From a virus, in the IMG/VR virus record IMGVR_UViG_3300028548_003314, positions 1 to 26,596 of that record: 26,596 bases of DNA; one strand, written 5' to 3'. The notes under the pieces are model-generated. The model worked only from the letters and a program-made list of their open reading frames with translations. It had not been told where the DNA came from and searched no databases. This document shows positions 5,829 to 26,596 of the stretch, in pieces; the first letter of the stretch is position 1, and the number at the start of each line of letters is the position of its first letter. The translations under genes were made by a program, and so were the position numbers.

Positions 5829-6482
5829 TTGAGTGGAACATTATTTGGTTTTCCTGTCTATAATTTTAGGATTAACCCTGATTCTTATGATAAACAAAAA
5901 ATAGTCAGCGACATAAAACAAAATTATGAGATAGATGGTAATAGGAATGAGTGGGGCTCTAGTAATCTCCACCATCCCTATGGTGATTGGGAAAACGAAA
6001 AGTTCATAGATATAAACTATAATAAACTAAAAGAAGTATATCAAAAAACTTTTGATATGTTCTTTCATGATGATGGTTGGAATAGGGGTTTTATTGGTAA
6101 TAAACCTTTTAATTTCCATTGGAACATTGTTAACTATACAGCAATTAAAACAGGTCAATACATGAAAGCTCATACTCATCCAGAGTATGATTTTTCTTGC
6201 ACACATTATATCAATTATAATCCAGAAATACATAGTTCTTTACGGTTCGTAAATAGTAGTCCTACTGGTTTATTTGGTAGAGAAATAATGAACGAACAGT
6301 ATGATATTGCAGATAGATCAAATTTATCAAATTCATATTTGTATGGTGATTATGACTATCCAGCTGTTGAAGATGATATGATAATATTTCCAGCAACATT
6401 ACAACACGAAGTTCCTGTTCAAAAAGAAACAGATGAACTTAGAATAGTTGTAGTAACTAACATAAAACTTTTAAATGCTTAA
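5829..6482 (+). CDS. 2-oxoglutarate/Fe(II)-dependent oxygenase (TIGR02466-like)
   Basis: 217 aa from a TTG start immediately after the previous stop. The jelly-roll core shows the HTHPEYDFS block (candidate ligands H115/H117 and D121), a late IIFPATLQHEVP strand with the distal ligand H193, and an Arg (R205, LRIVVV) placed to bind 2-oxoglutarate. This resembles the phage-abundant TIGR02466-type oxygenases, whose substrates are unknown. It is one of three 2OG-oxygenase-like genes in the window. The exact first ligand (H115 or H117) is uncertain. Confidence 0.8.
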   Translation: MSGTLFGFPVYNFRINPDSYDKQKIVSDIKQNYEIDGNRNEWGSSNLHHPYGDWENEKFIDINYNKLKEVYQKTFDMFFHDDGWNRGFIGNKPFNFHWNIVNYTAIKTGQYMKAHTHPEYDFSCTHYINYNPEIHSSLRFVNSSPTGLFGREIMNEQYDIADRSNLSNSYLYGDYDYPAVEDDMIIFPATLQHEVPVQKETDELRIVVVTNIKLLNA

Positions 6483-14200: not shown

Positions 14201-14554
14201 ATGACAATGCATCTATTACCAGTTTACTTTAGTACTACTAGTACACGTAAACGCAAAAAATCCAAGAAATCAAAATCTCTGTTAATGGCAGAGATTATTC
14301 ACCAGAAGTTTCTTAAAAAAACTATTCGGGGTGTAGCGCAGTCTGGTAGCGCATTCGCTTTGGGAGCGAAGGGTCAGAGGTTCGAATCCTTTCACCCCGA
14401 CCAACCCAATCTAGCACCACTTTCTAATGATATTCCTGTAGGGATAGCAAAGAAGAAAGAAGTGATGGATCACAATTTCACAATCGCACCAGCTTATAAC
14501 AAGGGTGCATATCAAGTAATCAGTAAAAACAGTATAAAGGATATTGGAAGATGA
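14201..14554 (+). CDS. Phage small protein whose reading frame contains a tRNA gene
   Basis: 117 aa if read through. The N-terminal part (MTMHLLPVYFSTTSTRKRKK) is very basic and resembles small conserved marine-phage proteins known to me. The C-terminal part (FTIAPAYNKGAYQVI...KDIGR) likewise looks like a real conserved tail. Between them, codons of tRNA-Pro (14327-14403) are read in frame as a GVAQSGSAFALG-type peptide. Either the tRNA gene was inserted and kept the frame open, or only one half is made (internal ATG 14464 for the C-terminal part). The start is leaderless by promoter position and has no Shine-Dalgarno. Processing of the tRNA would destroy the message. Confidence 0.5.
   Translation: MTMHLLPVYFSTTSTRKRKKSKKSKSLLMAEIIHQKFLKKTIRGVAQSGSAFALGAKGQRFESFHPDQPNLAPLSNDIPVGIAKKKEVMDHNFTIAPAYNKGAYQVISKNSIKDIGR
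14327..14403 (+). tRNA. tRNA-Pro(UGG)
   Basis: 77 bases including an encoded CCA. The acceptor stem CGGGGTG/CACCCCG is perfect, the D stem is GCGC/GCGC, the anticodon stem TTCGC/GCGAA holds loop TTTGGGA (anticodon TGG), and the T arm is AGAGG-TTCGAAT-CCTTT. All invariant positions are normal, so it should be functional. CCA is the favoured proline codon in many genes here, which this tRNA reads. The gene sits inside an open reading frame. Confidence 0.97.
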
Positions 14555-15107: not shown

Positions 15108-15662
15108 ATGGATATTGATGAATATTATAACGCATCATACGAAGTTAAAGATAATTTTCTATCAGAAGTAGAGTTTGCAAAATTAGAAGAAGCAATTATG
15201 GGCCCAGAATTTAATTGGAACTATAGTTACAATGTTTCTGATGGTGGTGATCCTGAGAATGACATATATTTTATGCATTTATTTTATATAGGTTTAGGTT
15301 CAAAACCTAAAATAGATTTTCATGGAAATCCAATACCACCAGAAAAAAGTCCTTTCTATAAGTTTATAGAACCATTTCTAGAAAAACTTCCTGACTTTCA
15401 AACTTTAATAAGAGCAAAAGCAAATCTTTATGTTGCAAGAAAAAAATTAATTCATCATAAAGATCATACAGATATGGAGTTTTCACATAAAGGAGCTATA
15501 TTATATATGAATGATAATGATGGATTTACTGTACTAGAAGATGGTACAGAGATTGAAAGTAAAGCAAATAGAGTATTACTTTTTGATCCAAGTAAGCCAC
15601 ATCATAGTACTTCATGTACTAAAGATAATCGCCGTGTAAATATCAACATCAACTACCTATAG
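15108..15662 (+). CDS. 2OG-Fe(II) oxygenase (prolyl 4-hydroxylase-like)
   Basis: 184 aa. The double-stranded beta-helix core carries the HxD ligands in HHKDHTDMEF (H120, D122), a distal His in SKPHHSTS (H165 or H166), and Arg in DNRRVNINI (R175/R176) for 2-oxoglutarate. The order and spacing fit the prolyl 4-hydroxylase-like branch common in marine phages. Substrate unknown; candidates include proteins or nucleobases. It sits two bases after a membrane-protein gene within a long operon. Confidence 0.82.
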   Translation: MDIDEYYNASYEVKDNFLSEVEFAKLEEAIMGPEFNWNYSYNVSDGGDPENDIYFMHLFYIGLGSKPKIDFHGNPIPPEKSPFYKFIEPFLEKLPDFQTLIRAKANLYVARKKLIHHKDHTDMEFSHKGAILYMNDNDGFTVLEDGTEIESKANRVLLFDPSKPHHSTSCTKDNRRVNININYL

Positions 15663-19120: not shown

Positions 19121-19629
19121 TTAATGAAATATTATTAGGTGGACTTATGTTGATTAGTCCTGTAAATGCTGAAGAACCTATACCTATATTTGATGAACAT
19201 TCAGTTGAATGTCTTGCGTTGAATATGTATCATGAAGCAAGAGGGCAGGGTACTGCTGGTTTGTTAGCAGTATCTTCAGTTGTTATGAATAGGGTTGCAG
19301 ATGAAAGATTCCCTAATACTATATGTGGAGTGATCAAACAAGCACAAACCCGCCCATCTTGGAAAAATAAAAACAAGATGATTCCAATTCGTGATAAGTG
19401 CCAATTTTCATGGTTCTGTGATGGCAAGAGTGATGTTCCTACTGATAAAGAAACTTACAAAAGACTATTGACAATAGCCAAAACATTGTTGTATAATGAT
19501 GTTATAATTCCAGATATTACAGATGGTGCTCTATTCTATCACGCTGACTATGTGAAACCAGCTTGGAGTAAAACTAAAACTAAGACTGTAGAAGTACAGG
19601 ATCATATTTTTTACAAGTGGGACAAATGA
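19102..19629 (+). CDS. SleB-like cell wall hydrolase (Hydrolase_2)
   Basis: 175 aa from TTG 19102 (AAGGA six bases upstream); TTG 19117 with GGAGA is equally possible and gives a cleaner signal peptide ending PVNA. The enzyme core shows NMYHEARGQG (catalytic Glu45), AVSSVVMNRV, a Cys-Cys pair (ICGVI, DKCQFSWFCDG), and GALFYHADYVKPAW, the order of SleB/CwlJ-type hydrolases that cleave peptidoglycan. Exported by signal peptide, unlike the T4-type lysozyme at 24915, so the phage has two wall-cutting enzymes. Confidence 0.85.
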   Translation: MWRYILINEILLGGLMLISPVNAEEPIPIFDEHSVECLALNMYHEARGQGTAGLLAVSSVVMNRVADERFPNTICGVIKQAQTRPSWKNKNKMIPIRDKCQFSWFCDGKSDVPTDKETYKRLLTIAKTLLYNDVIIPDITDGALFYHADYVKPAWSKTKTKTVEVQDHIFYKWDK

Positions 19630-20153
19630 GTAACTTTAGATTTATAGAATATGATGTAGATGTTCGTGATATTCTAGCAGATATTAAAGATGAAGATTGG
19701 GGTGTTGCTGGAAGCTTAAAGGGAGCCTCTGGTGATACTGCACCATATGGTTTTCTTCCTCTTACTATGGCACTTGTAAAAAATGCTGATGACGATCCTA
19801 AGAAAACAGAGATGCAAACAAATACACCTATGTTTAAAACCTATAAAGGAATTAGAAGGTGGTTAAAATATTGGAAACTCCATCGACATTCACGGGCAGC
19901 ATTCTTTAAGTTGCGGCCAGGAGAATCACTAGGAAGGCATATTGATGAAGGTGATTATTATCTAACAAGAGATAGATATCATTTATCATTACAGGGAACT
20001 TATCTATACACTGTTGGAGATGAAGTTCACCAAATAAATCCAGGCACTTTCTTCTGGTTTGATAATAAGAAAGTTCACGAATCATATAACAATAGCGATG
20101 TCGATAGATTGACATTCGTTTTCGATGTCCCAAAAGGAAAGAATAACCCATGA
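19626..20153 (+). CDS. Aspartyl/asparaginyl beta-hydroxylase-like 2OG oxygenase
   Basis: 175 aa from ATG 19626, overlapping the previous stop; GTG 19617 would add three residues. The core includes [15 protein letters not shown] (H105, D107), [24 protein letters not shown] (H151) and DRLTFVFDV (R161). The H...H...R pattern and strand order follow the Asp/Asn hydroxylase family (2OG oxygenases seen in phages as well). Whether it modifies a protein side chain is unknown. Third oxygenase of this superfamily in the window. Confidence 0.8.
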
Positions 20154-23775: not shown

Positions 23776-24891
23776 ATGCCAGCACGTAAGCACACTCAGT
23801 GGTTATCACAACCAACTATCGAATATGTAGATAGTCGTATTTACAGCGATTGGGATATCTTTCATGAAGAACAAGAGAAAATCTTTTCTAAATGTTGGAT
23901 GCCACTATGTCATGAATCAGAACTAGAAAATCATTTAGATTTTAGAACAGCTACTATTGCTGGTTCTAAAGTAGCAATGATTCGTGACAAAGAAAGAGTT
24001 GTTGCGTTTCAACATAACTTTCAATCTTTACCAGTGAGTGGTAACTTAGAAGCTGACGGTGGTTACGATCACTGGAACTGCCCAGAACTACATTGTGAAG
24101 TTAAGTTTGGTGGTATGGTTTGGGTTACAATTAATCCAGAACCTTCTCAGGATGTAGAAGGTTGGGCTGCTGGTGCGTTTGATTGTATTCGCCCAGCACT
24201 TGACACAGAACCATTAGAAGTATTCCATTATCACAAAGCAGTTATTGGTAGTAACTATAAATTATGGCATGATACAAACAGTGAATTTTATCACGATTAT
24301 ATGCATTACTTCAATCGTACAACAGGATTTAATGATGAATACTTTGCTCGTAAGTGTACAGGGTTTGATAATGGTCACGTTAATGTAGGAAGTTTTGAAG
24401 TACAATATACAGCAATGGAGAATGGTAAAGATCGTGGAGAATTAAGTTTTCCTACTTTACCACCCAATCAGTGGTATATGATTGATTTATTTCCCGGCAT
24501 GAACTTCAATTTACGTGGTAGTGCATTGCGTACAGACGTTGTAACTCCACTAGGCCCAGATAAAGTAATGATAGAGTTTCGTGGATTTGGTCTTAAAAAA
24601 GATACTCCTTTGGAACGCAAAACTCGTATAGAACATCACAACACAATCTGGGGCCCATTTGGTCGTAACTTGCATGAAGACTTACTTGGTATTCAAGGTC
24701 AAGGATCAAGTATGCAGCCTGGCTCAGAACATAGACATATATTACATGGTCGCCATGAAAATGAAACTATTCATGATGAAGTAGGTATGCGGCACTTCTA
24801 TAATGAGTGGGGTGCTTGGATGGGTCGTGACCCTGCTAACCCAATGAAGGAAAATGCAATTTGGGAAAACCAAGAAGAACTTGTTGCGTAA
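23776..24891 (+). CDS. Rieske-type ring-hydroxylase alpha-subunit homologue lacking the Fe-S cluster ligands
   Basis: 371 aa with AAGGGAG upstream. The overall order is that of aromatic-ring-hydroxylating oxygenases: an N-terminal YSDWDIFHEEQEKIFSKCW, a Rieske domain region (40-120, ending KFGGMVWVTINPEP), and a catalytic domain with SNYKLWHDTNSEFYHDYMH (H173, H177) and NLHEDLLGIQGQG (D302). The Rieske CxH and CxxH pairs are not intact: the first aligns with F82 and S84, and in NCPELHC only C102 is in register. So it may work without a cluster or do something else. The catalytic HxxxH spacing is also one residue shorter than usual. Confidence 0.75.
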   Translation: MPARKHTQWLSQPTIEYVDSRIYSDWDIFHEEQEKIFSKCWMPLCHESELENHLDFRTATIAGSKVAMIRDKERVVAFQHNFQSLPVSGNLEADGGYDHWNCPELHCEVKFGGMVWVTINPEPSQDVEGWAAGAFDCIRPALDTEPLEVFHYHKAVIGSNYKLWHDTNSEFYHDYMHYFNRTTGFNDEYFARKCTGFDNGHVNVGSFEVQYTAMENGKDRGELSFPTLPPNQWYMIDLFPGMNFNLRGSALRTDVVTPLGPDKVMIEFRGFGLKKDTPLERKTRIEHHNTIWGPFGRNLHEDLLGIQGQGSSMQPGSEHRHILHGRHENETIHDEVGMRHFYNEWGAWMGRDPANPMKENAIWENQEELVA

Positions 24892-25395: not shown

Positions 25396-26106
25396 ATGTT
25401 TAATCATATGAATGTGGAGTTGCCCCCTATAAGCGCAACAACAACTAATGGTGTTCGTCTTTATGAAACACCAGAAGGAAACAAGTATCCTTCAATTACA
25501 ACTATTCTATCAGTCCGTAATAAATCTGGATTGGTGGAATGGCGTAAACGTGTAGGTGAAAAGACTGCAAACTACATTGCTGGTAAGGCTGCAGCTCGTG
25601 GTACTAAGGTTCACCATATGTGTGAAGATTATCTCAATAATGATAATATAGATCATCATCAGAAAGATTTTCTACCTTGGTGTTTGTTTACTCAATTACA
25701 GAAAGTTATGTCAAAAATAGATAACATCCATGCACAAGAAGCGGGACTCTATAGTGATAAATACAAGGTAGCGGGTAGAGTTGACTGTATTGCAGAGTAC
25801 AATGGTGTACTGTCTATTATAGACTTCAAGACTTCAACTAAAGAACGCAATGATGAATGGAATGAAAACTATTACATCCAATGTTCAGCTTATGCAGAAA
25901 TGTACGAAGAAAGAACTGGTACAGAGATAGATCAGATTGTTATTCTATGTGTAACCGAAGATGGTACTGTACAAGAGTTTGTAAAAGAGAAGTTTGATTA
26001 CCTAGATGCATTGGTAGAAACTGCCACCATATGGAGAGAACAAAATGAAACACCTAGCCACAATATTGGCGGTGGTTCTGTTAATGGGTTGTCAGACCAA
26101 CAGTAA
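25396..26106 (+). CDS. PD-(D/E)XK (RecB-like) exonuclease
   Basis: 236 aa. After a TTNGVRLYETPEGNKYPSIT opening, the nuclease core shows RGTKVHHMCEDYL (H73), E115 in HAQEAGLYS, GRVDCIAEYNG (D130) and LSIIDFKTS (D143, K145), then an Ile/Gln helix (YYIQCSAYAEMYEE). This is the PDDEXK_1/Cas4-RecB-like order, seen in many T4-like marine phages as a putative exonuclease. The start lies seven bases after a promoter -10 box, so its mRNA is predicted to be leaderless; ATG 25408 is a less likely alternative. It overlaps the lipoprotein gene by 62 bases. Confidence 0.82.
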   Translation: MFNHMNVELPPISATTTNGVRLYETPEGNKYPSITTILSVRNKSGLVEWRKRVGEKTANYIAGKAAARGTKVHHMCEDYLNNDNIDHHQKDFLPWCLFTQLQKVMSKIDNIHAQEAGLYSDKYKVAGRVDCIAEYNGVLSIIDFKTSTKERNDEWNENYYIQCSAYAEMYEERTGTEIDQIVILCVTEDGTVQEFVKEKFDYLDALVETATIWREQNETPSHNIGGGSVNGLSDQQ

Positions 26107-26488
26107 TACTCCCAAAGACCTAACATCGTCAAAACCAGTAGTAATAGAAACAGATCAACAACTGGCCGAAAAGTCTCAAAAAAAACCAACAGAAGATAAA
26201 AAAGATAAACCAGTGGTGGAAGGATTTATAATACAGAAACCTGTTCTTTGCGGTCCAGTTGATGTTTTCCTAGAAGGTATTGAAAGAACTTCCCAAGAAA
26301 AACCTATCGGTTTTTGGATAGATTCCCAGTATGGAAATAAAGTTATGGTGTTGCGTAATGCTGATACAGGATCGATAAGTGTTCTTGAGTTCATAAAAAA
26401 TGAGTATGCTTGTTTTATCTCTGTTGGTCAACAATCACAGATGGTTCCTACTGGGCCTACGAAAAAGGGTGAAAAAATTAAATTTTAA
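26045..26488 (+). CDS. Lipoprotein of unknown function
   Basis: 147 aa. Lipobox LLMGC with lipidated Cys16, a Lys/Thr/Pro-rich linker (about 20-58), then a small beta-rich domain (VEGFIIQKPVLCGPVDVFL, GFWIDSQYGNKVMVLRN, SISVLEFIKNEYACFISVG) with two Cys that may pair. Fifth lipoprotein in the window. It starts inside the exonuclease gene in another frame, as overlapping spanin genes do, but no partner was found. The rest of the gap to the promoter at 26496 is short. Confidence 0.7.
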   Translation: MKHLATILAVVLLMGCQTNSNTPKDLTSSKPVVIETDQQLAEKSQKKPTEDKKDKPVVEGFIIQKPVLCGPVDVFLEGIERTSQEKPIGFWIDSQYGNKVMVLRNADTGSISVLEFIKNEYACFISVGQQSQMVPTGPTKKGEKIKF

Positions 26489-26495
26489 AAGTGCC

Positions 26496-26524
26496 TTGAC
26501 TTTACTCTAAAGCTGTGGTATAAA
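26496..26524 (+). promoter_or_regulatory. Sigma70-like promoter for the tmRNA
   Basis: TTGACT (26496-26501), 17 bases, TATAAA (26519-26524), and the T4 late-type octamer TATAAATA at 26519-26526. The predicted start is near 26531, directly upstream of the tmRNA acceptor piece. Confidence 0.75.
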
Positions 26525-26530
26525 TATAAT

Positions 26531-26594
26531 ACAATTTGATGATACGGATCGAAGACTGAACTGGACGAGGGTGCAATTCCCTCCGCCTCCACCA
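26531..26594 (+). ncRNA. ssrA: Acceptor piece of a circularly permuted tmRNA (ssrA), incomplete in window
   Basis: The segment ends with a tRNA-like 3' half: T stem GAGGG (26567-26571) / CCCTC (26579-26583) with loop TGCAATT, acceptor strand CGCCTCC (26584-26590), A, CCA (26592-26594). The acceptor U70 position (T26588) is the one alanyl-tRNA synthetase requires as a G-U pair, and A73 is present. No GGGG-type 5' half or tag-reading frame lies upstream: a promoter begins 35 bases before the predicted RNA start. In permuted alphaproteobacterial and cyanobacterial genes the acceptor piece comes first and the coding piece follows the CCA. The coding piece would therefore lie just beyond the window edge. 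tmRNA rescues stalled ribosomes. Confidence 0.75.
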
Positions 26595-26596
26595 AA

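Follow-up and report, generated by a model that had tools for sequence, protein, structure and literature searches.

Circularly permuted tmRNA genes as such are already known from phages. The authors of Methylophilales phage Melnitz described a permuted ssrA with alphaproteobacterial affinity and an early promoter upstream (PMC9004378, 2022), and found a permuted tmRNA in 17 of 47 contigs related to that phage (PMC9004378). The ssrA gene of Melnitz (EXVC044M; MZ577097) is of the same alpha type as the tmRNA considered here and lies in the same order of exonuclease, small ORFs, permuted tmRNA and late-transcription coactivator. Its two halves are likewise separated by a spacer, of 142 nt. The differences are the T loop (GGCAGTA) and the lack in that spacer of the nested gene described below (protein core WSICADI), although an unrelated ORF traverses the spacer. 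Pelagibacter phage Mosig (EXVC030M; MT647606) likewise has an annotated ssrA between exonuclease and late-promoter accessory genes, but this gene is shorter (339 nt), and tblastn matched the nested ORF to none of the isolated phages in the collection.

Two further systems invite comparison. The two-piece tmRNAs of Alphaproteobacteria (RF01849 / RF04321) share with the phage genes the order acceptor half–spacer–coding half, the G3-U70 pair, the encoded CCA and a T loop with G55. In these hosts, however, the spacer measures 3–48 nt in 60 of the 63 genes sampled, and the two host spacers longer than 90 nt contain no ORF of 30 aa, whereas many phage spacers are 120–290 nt long and protein-coding. 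Intron-type tmRNA genes have a group I intron in the region of the T loop, and some contain a homing endonuclease gene (PMC11915505). They too can enclose a protein gene in a segment lost on maturation, but there a self-splicing intron interrupts the mature RNA, whereas the phage gene lies, with no intron involved, in the spacer, an element peculiar to permuted genes. A protein gene within the spacer that a split tmRNA discards appears to be undescribed: it is not mentioned in the accessible portions of the Melnitz paper, the 2025 tmRNA database or the open-licence literature.

The sequence analysed here (the window) covers an entire IMG/VR virus record, 26,596 bases long. We put at roughly 0.85 the probability that it breaks off within the first half of a functional tmRNA gene, circularly permuted and belonging to a marine T4-like phage of the Melnitz/HTVC008M group, and that the spacer is a mini-operon in the matching allele class. 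Positions 26538..26596 (+) read directly as the acceptor (3′ tRNA-like) half, which comes first in gene order. GGAC (26563-26566) precedes a T arm (26567..26583) whose stem strands, GAGGG (26567-26571) and CCCTC (26579-26583), form 5/5 pairs around the loop TGCAATT (26572-26578). The acceptor 3′ segment (26584..26594) follows, with the strand CGCCTCC (26584-26590) containing U70 (26588), then A73 (26591) and an encoded CCA (26592-26594). The record stops at 26596, two bases past the CCA; since the window spans the complete record, the truncation of the acceptor half is simply the record end.

Immediately 5′ of this half is a tmRNA promoter on the + strand, with a −35 box TTGACT (26496..26501) and, after 17 nt, TATAAATA (26519..26526). 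The latter is a sigma-70 −10 box (TATAAA) and also fits the T4-type late promoter octamer; TATAAAT was the late promoter query of the Melnitz authors (PMC9004378). Among 138 distinct viral permuted tmRNA genes with enough upstream sequence, TATAAATA precedes 74, and TTGAC with an 18-nt gap to it precedes 58, with a 19-nt version in 4 more. Upstream lie a 147-aa lipoprotein-like ORF (26045..26488, +), which has no significant family in Pfam or PHROGs, and a PD-(D/E)XK exonuclease gene (25396..26106, +; PF12705, E 2e-6) that is the syntenic anchor of the tmRNA locus. Because the promoter stands directly upstream, after a protein ORF that ends at 26488, the mRNA-like half cannot lie on that side; a one-piece bacterial tmRNA is thereby ruled out. 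A plain tRNA was also rejected, as the single tRNA that ARAGORN calls in the window is a tRNA-Pro (TGG; 14327-14403, +, inside the mechanically called ORF 14201-14554). No tmRNA is called by ARAGORN anywhere in the window, an expected outcome when half of the gene is missing. Rfam models match the window end as a 3′-truncated permuted tmRNA (RF04321, 35.2 bits, E 8e-4) and a truncated beta_tmRNA (RF01850, 29.5 bits, E 9e-6); neither score reaches the gathering threshold, since the second half is missing. The acceptor half with CCA and U70 and the promoter before it, both proposed in a first-pass annotation made from the sequence, thus hold up.

The remaining half was sought in relatives. The exonuclease gene (25396-26106) was used to gather 80 viral loci, and relatives of the exonuclease at 70–99% identity have a tmRNA downstream. 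Both halves are found in 66 of the 80 loci, with the coding half 369–715 nt after the exonuclease; the other 14 comprise six with an acceptor-type match only, five that are too short and three with neither half. In the relatives the coding half starts with GGGGGCG or GGGGGTG, 18 to ~290 nt after the CCA, and the spacer reaches at least 100 nt in 40 of the 66 loci and stays below 100 nt in 26. ARAGORN reports permuted tmRNAs with ANDN...ALAA tags in relatives (for example, ANDNIAYDDFALAA), although it calls none in L006, L206 and L207, where both halves are present. The acceptor 3′ strand also covaries with the GGGGGCG start of the second half. With that half located by its D-loop motif alone, so that pairing was not required, complementarity at acceptor positions 5-68 and 6-67 holds in 162/162 distinct viral genes, with the pair types GC/GC (95), GT/AC (62), GA/TC (3), CT/AG (1) and one with a G-U. 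This pattern is one of compensatory change across the spacer.

These relatives bear out the permuted order proposed in the first-pass annotation, with the mRNA-like part after the CCA: the coding half follows in the 66 loci and in all ten of the contigs that share the last 36 bases of the window. The predicted coding piece, with a GGGG start and a tag ending in Ala-Ala, is likewise found downstream in relatives. They also decide against a broken remnant, a tmRNA 3′ fragment left as an attachment-site scar by imprecise prophage excision. tmRNA genes are common integration sites, and half a gene alone is visible in the window. But the complete gene occupies the same place in relatives, the promoter, U70, CCA and stems are all intact, and the cut coincides with the record end; we rejected the scar, which we regard as extremely improbable.

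The alphaproteobacterial character of the tmRNA is also supported. Relatives score 99–146 bits against alpha_tmRNA (RF01849); for the truncated window itself, the best models are RF04321 and RF01850. The first-pass annotation had linked the permuted form to the host lineage, and had singled out the T loop TGCAATT as unusual at the position normally modified to pseudouridine. The first of these points is supported by the RF01849 scores and by G55, whereas the second does not stand. Position 55 is G in 63/63 parsed alphaproteobacterial host tmRNAs (mostly GGCGGTA or GGCAGTA; the sample is biased toward high-scoring matches), and G55 is common to the phage relatives as well as the window. G55 is thus a mark of lineage, and a T-loop anomaly invented by phages was discarded. 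In a genome scan, TGCRAYT loops seemed rare in bacteria (mostly Melainabacteria, Omnitrophota, Elusimicrobia and Bacillota), a result that was also set aside, as it reflects only the T54 requirement of the search pattern.

What lies in the spacer is the more unexpected feature of these loci. The last 36 bases of the window recur exactly in ten other viral contigs, some of them nearly identical to each other, and all ten have a matching coding half downstream and an ORF in the spacer. After the CCA, these contigs read AGGAGATTAG, with a T-to-C change in one and AGGAGATTGT in another; an ORF like MKNPLVREVSKWMFKAYILWSICADITLLAGIIYLVFF follows that start and leads at once into the coding half. 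The nested ORF encodes a small membrane protein of about 38 aa with the core WSICADI. Two loci, L006 and L207, have another ORF of 34–35 aa first in the spacer.

Whether the window's own allele belongs to this class depends on its last ~100 bases. Over ~25390 to ~26480, the window agrees at about 98–100% with L002 and L005, the closest contigs on that side, which carry a tmRNA allele with a spacer of 18 nt. At ~26480-26503, no more than 120 bases from the record end, identity to these two falls from ~100% to ~82%, while that to L006 climbs from about 50% to reach 43/44 near the window end; the end also matches L206 at 96% over 81 nt. The final bases therefore leave L002/L005 for ORF-bearing alleles, either because alleles were exchanged or because the contig end is chimeric. 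An assembly chimera, with the last ~100 bases taken from the tmRNA allele of another strain, would account for these shifts so close to the record end, and we consider it possible, if on the unlikely side. The junction, however, lies in an intergenic/promoter region where natural allele exchange also happens, and several T-loop types accompany the same spacer gene among relatives, which makes recombination around the tmRNA plausible. Alternatively, the phage could have an ordinary permuted tmRNA whose spacer is short and non-coding, like those of L002-L005 and Mosig, and this genome would then lack the nested gene; such a reading would agree with the near-identity to L002/L005 upstream and with the 339-nt length of the Mosig tmRNA. 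We find it improbable, as the acceptor half of the window is unlike that of L002/L005 (T stem GAGGG versus GGGAG; CGCCTCC versus CACCTCC), and every allele that matches the window's last 36 bases has a gene in the spacer (ten of ten). If the contig end is genuine, the allele match makes it quite likely that the window's own tmRNA contains the nested gene, its spacer and second half lying outside the window.

The distribution of the nested ORF extends beyond this allele. A search with the back-translated WSICADI core, combined with loci already in the set, recovered 113 distinct places; both tmRNA halves surround the ORF in 75, seven have one half with the other lost at a contig end, and 31 show neither by this test. 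Because this search selects for the ORF, the ORF-bearing share of phage tmRNAs that it implies is biased. Rfam found a permuted tmRNA in five of 18 loci where the ORF had appeared free, and in four of these (L424, L399, L327 and L422) the ORF is directly upstream of the tmRNA. Near other copies no tmRNA was detected; that in L334, for example, lies between tail genes. The nested protein has no significant match in Pfam or PHROGs; a hit to DUF2542 (E 0.014) was below the cut-off. Other phage tmRNA spacers hold unrelated ORFs, for example L168, L189 and L173 (52, 50 and 32 aa), and the spacer may thus be a general site for small genes.

Several lines of evidence indicate that the nested ORF is a gene. 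Over 58 distinct 28-codon blocks, its pN/pS is 0.21, as under purifying selection, and differences fall at the three codon positions as 9557/4397/17461; the pairwise counts depend on one another, although the direction they give is clear. The ratio is 0.25 in a 16-sequence subset less than 85% identical and 0.36 in the free homologues. Stops are absent from the nested frame (0/58) and present in the other two frames in 58/58 and 51/58. Hydropathy predicts one membrane helix (19-residue maximum 2.1–2.3). Translation signals are also widespread: an SD-like motif precedes the membrane ORF in 63/68 and stands at the spacer start in 71/73. There, a start codon at spacer offset 11–14 (72/74), usually 6 nt after AGGAG, opens a short acidic leader ORF, typically of 18–23 aa, that overlaps the start of the membrane ORF in most cases.

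The geometry of the spacer ties this gene closely to the tmRNA. A single base separates the stop codon from the first G of the coding half in 72 of 82 nested cases; in nine of the others the stop is one base closer, and in the last, two bases closer. The ends of ORF-bearing spacers pair with each other (mean 12.2 pairs versus 4.9 in shuffles), and L052 folds with a z of −7.6. The 3′ strand of this stem consists of the last codons of the ORF, CTA-GTC/ATC-TTT-TTT-TGA, and the 5′ strand contains AGGAG. A 5′ strand with GACT is matched by the codon GTC in every case (10/10), and one with GATT by GTC (36) or ATC (26); small as the number is, these combinations agree with what pairing would predict. 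The ORF could in principle be a by-product of a conserved RNA stem, given that the stem includes its last codons. This we judge to be very improbable in view of the third-position substitution pattern and pN/pS of 0.21, the lack of in-frame stops and the protein homologues outside tmRNA spacers, such as those in the tail-gene cluster or just upstream of a tmRNA. End-to-end pairing also occurs in non-coding phage spacers (9.9 versus 4.5) and less so in hosts (5.9 versus 4.6). The gene therefore seems to have been inserted into the loop of a pre-existing processing hairpin.

A working model can be built on what is known of two-piece tmRNAs. A single precursor would be cleaved by RNase P at G1, where the coding half starts, and by 3′ processing at the CCA; the two pieces would pair and receive alanine by way of G3-U70. 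Together with host SmpB they would then rescue ribosomes that have stalled and mark the products of these for proteolysis. For alleles that share the last 36 bases of the window, the spacer would act as a mini-operon. An AGGAG Shine–Dalgarno sequence directly after the CCA would start the short ORF (usually 18–23 aa), overlapping that of the single-pass membrane protein (~38 aa), which ends one base before the predicted RNase P site. As the spacer ends would form a long closing stem of the precursor, the last codons of the protein gene would double as that stem. Most likely, the nascent precursor would first be the mRNA of the small protein(s) and only afterwards the source of the tmRNA, with ribosome passage and stem closure competing; more speculatively, the spacer ORFs might be translated before or instead of maturation. 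RNase P cleavage would leave a single base after the stop codon of the mini-mRNA, so that trimming would yield a non-stop message, in turn a natural substrate of the tmRNA.

Together, purifying selection, the position of the stop next to the coding half and the stem of the spacer ends suggest that the pre-tmRNA probably doubles as a mini-mRNA. The fuller proposal is one to which we give about even odds on these comparative data: that in a large marine phage group the pre-tmRNA is also the messenger for a leader ORF and a conserved single-pass membrane protein, that the final codons of the latter form the processing stem with the stop one base from the RNase P site, and that translation and maturation compete or are timed. 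If so, one transcript would be both message and rescue RNA. Such an arrangement would explain the long spacers in some phage tmRNAs, and also why gene finders miss the tmRNA (ARAGORN in the three loci named above) and the protein (Pfam and PHROGs). It also raises the question of whether cutting the precursor turns the protein's message into a substrate of the very tmRNA that accompanies it.

Other features were recorded at these loci. A glutamine riboswitch (RF01739, 52.8 bits; L202:5472-5520) overlaps the annotated 3′ end of the Melnitz tmRNA; none reached the gathering threshold in the eleven relatives scanned, and as a feature of Melnitz only among the twelve loci it was dismissed as part of the window locus. 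In the window, the gene at 23776-24891 (+), between phoH and a phage lysozyme, may be an auxiliary metabolic gene: its 371-aa product is an alpha subunit of a ring-hydroxylating oxygenase (PF00848, E 8.5e-8) and matches nothing in PHROGs. Two iron(II)/2-oxoglutarate oxygenase matches (PF13759; PF05118 Asp/Arg hydroxylase) occur among the ORFs at 5829-6482, 15108-15662 and 19617-20153 (+), of which that at 15108-15662 has no Pfam match and resembles such oxygenases by eye. The phage permuted tmRNA in L399 is followed ~180 nt downstream by a manA RNA motif (RF01745, 72 bits; L399:1813-1987). Finally, the permuted tmRNA at L081:4505-5025 has an unusually long predicted tag, ANDNVAVDNVVYANFGSQKALVSYENFALAA.
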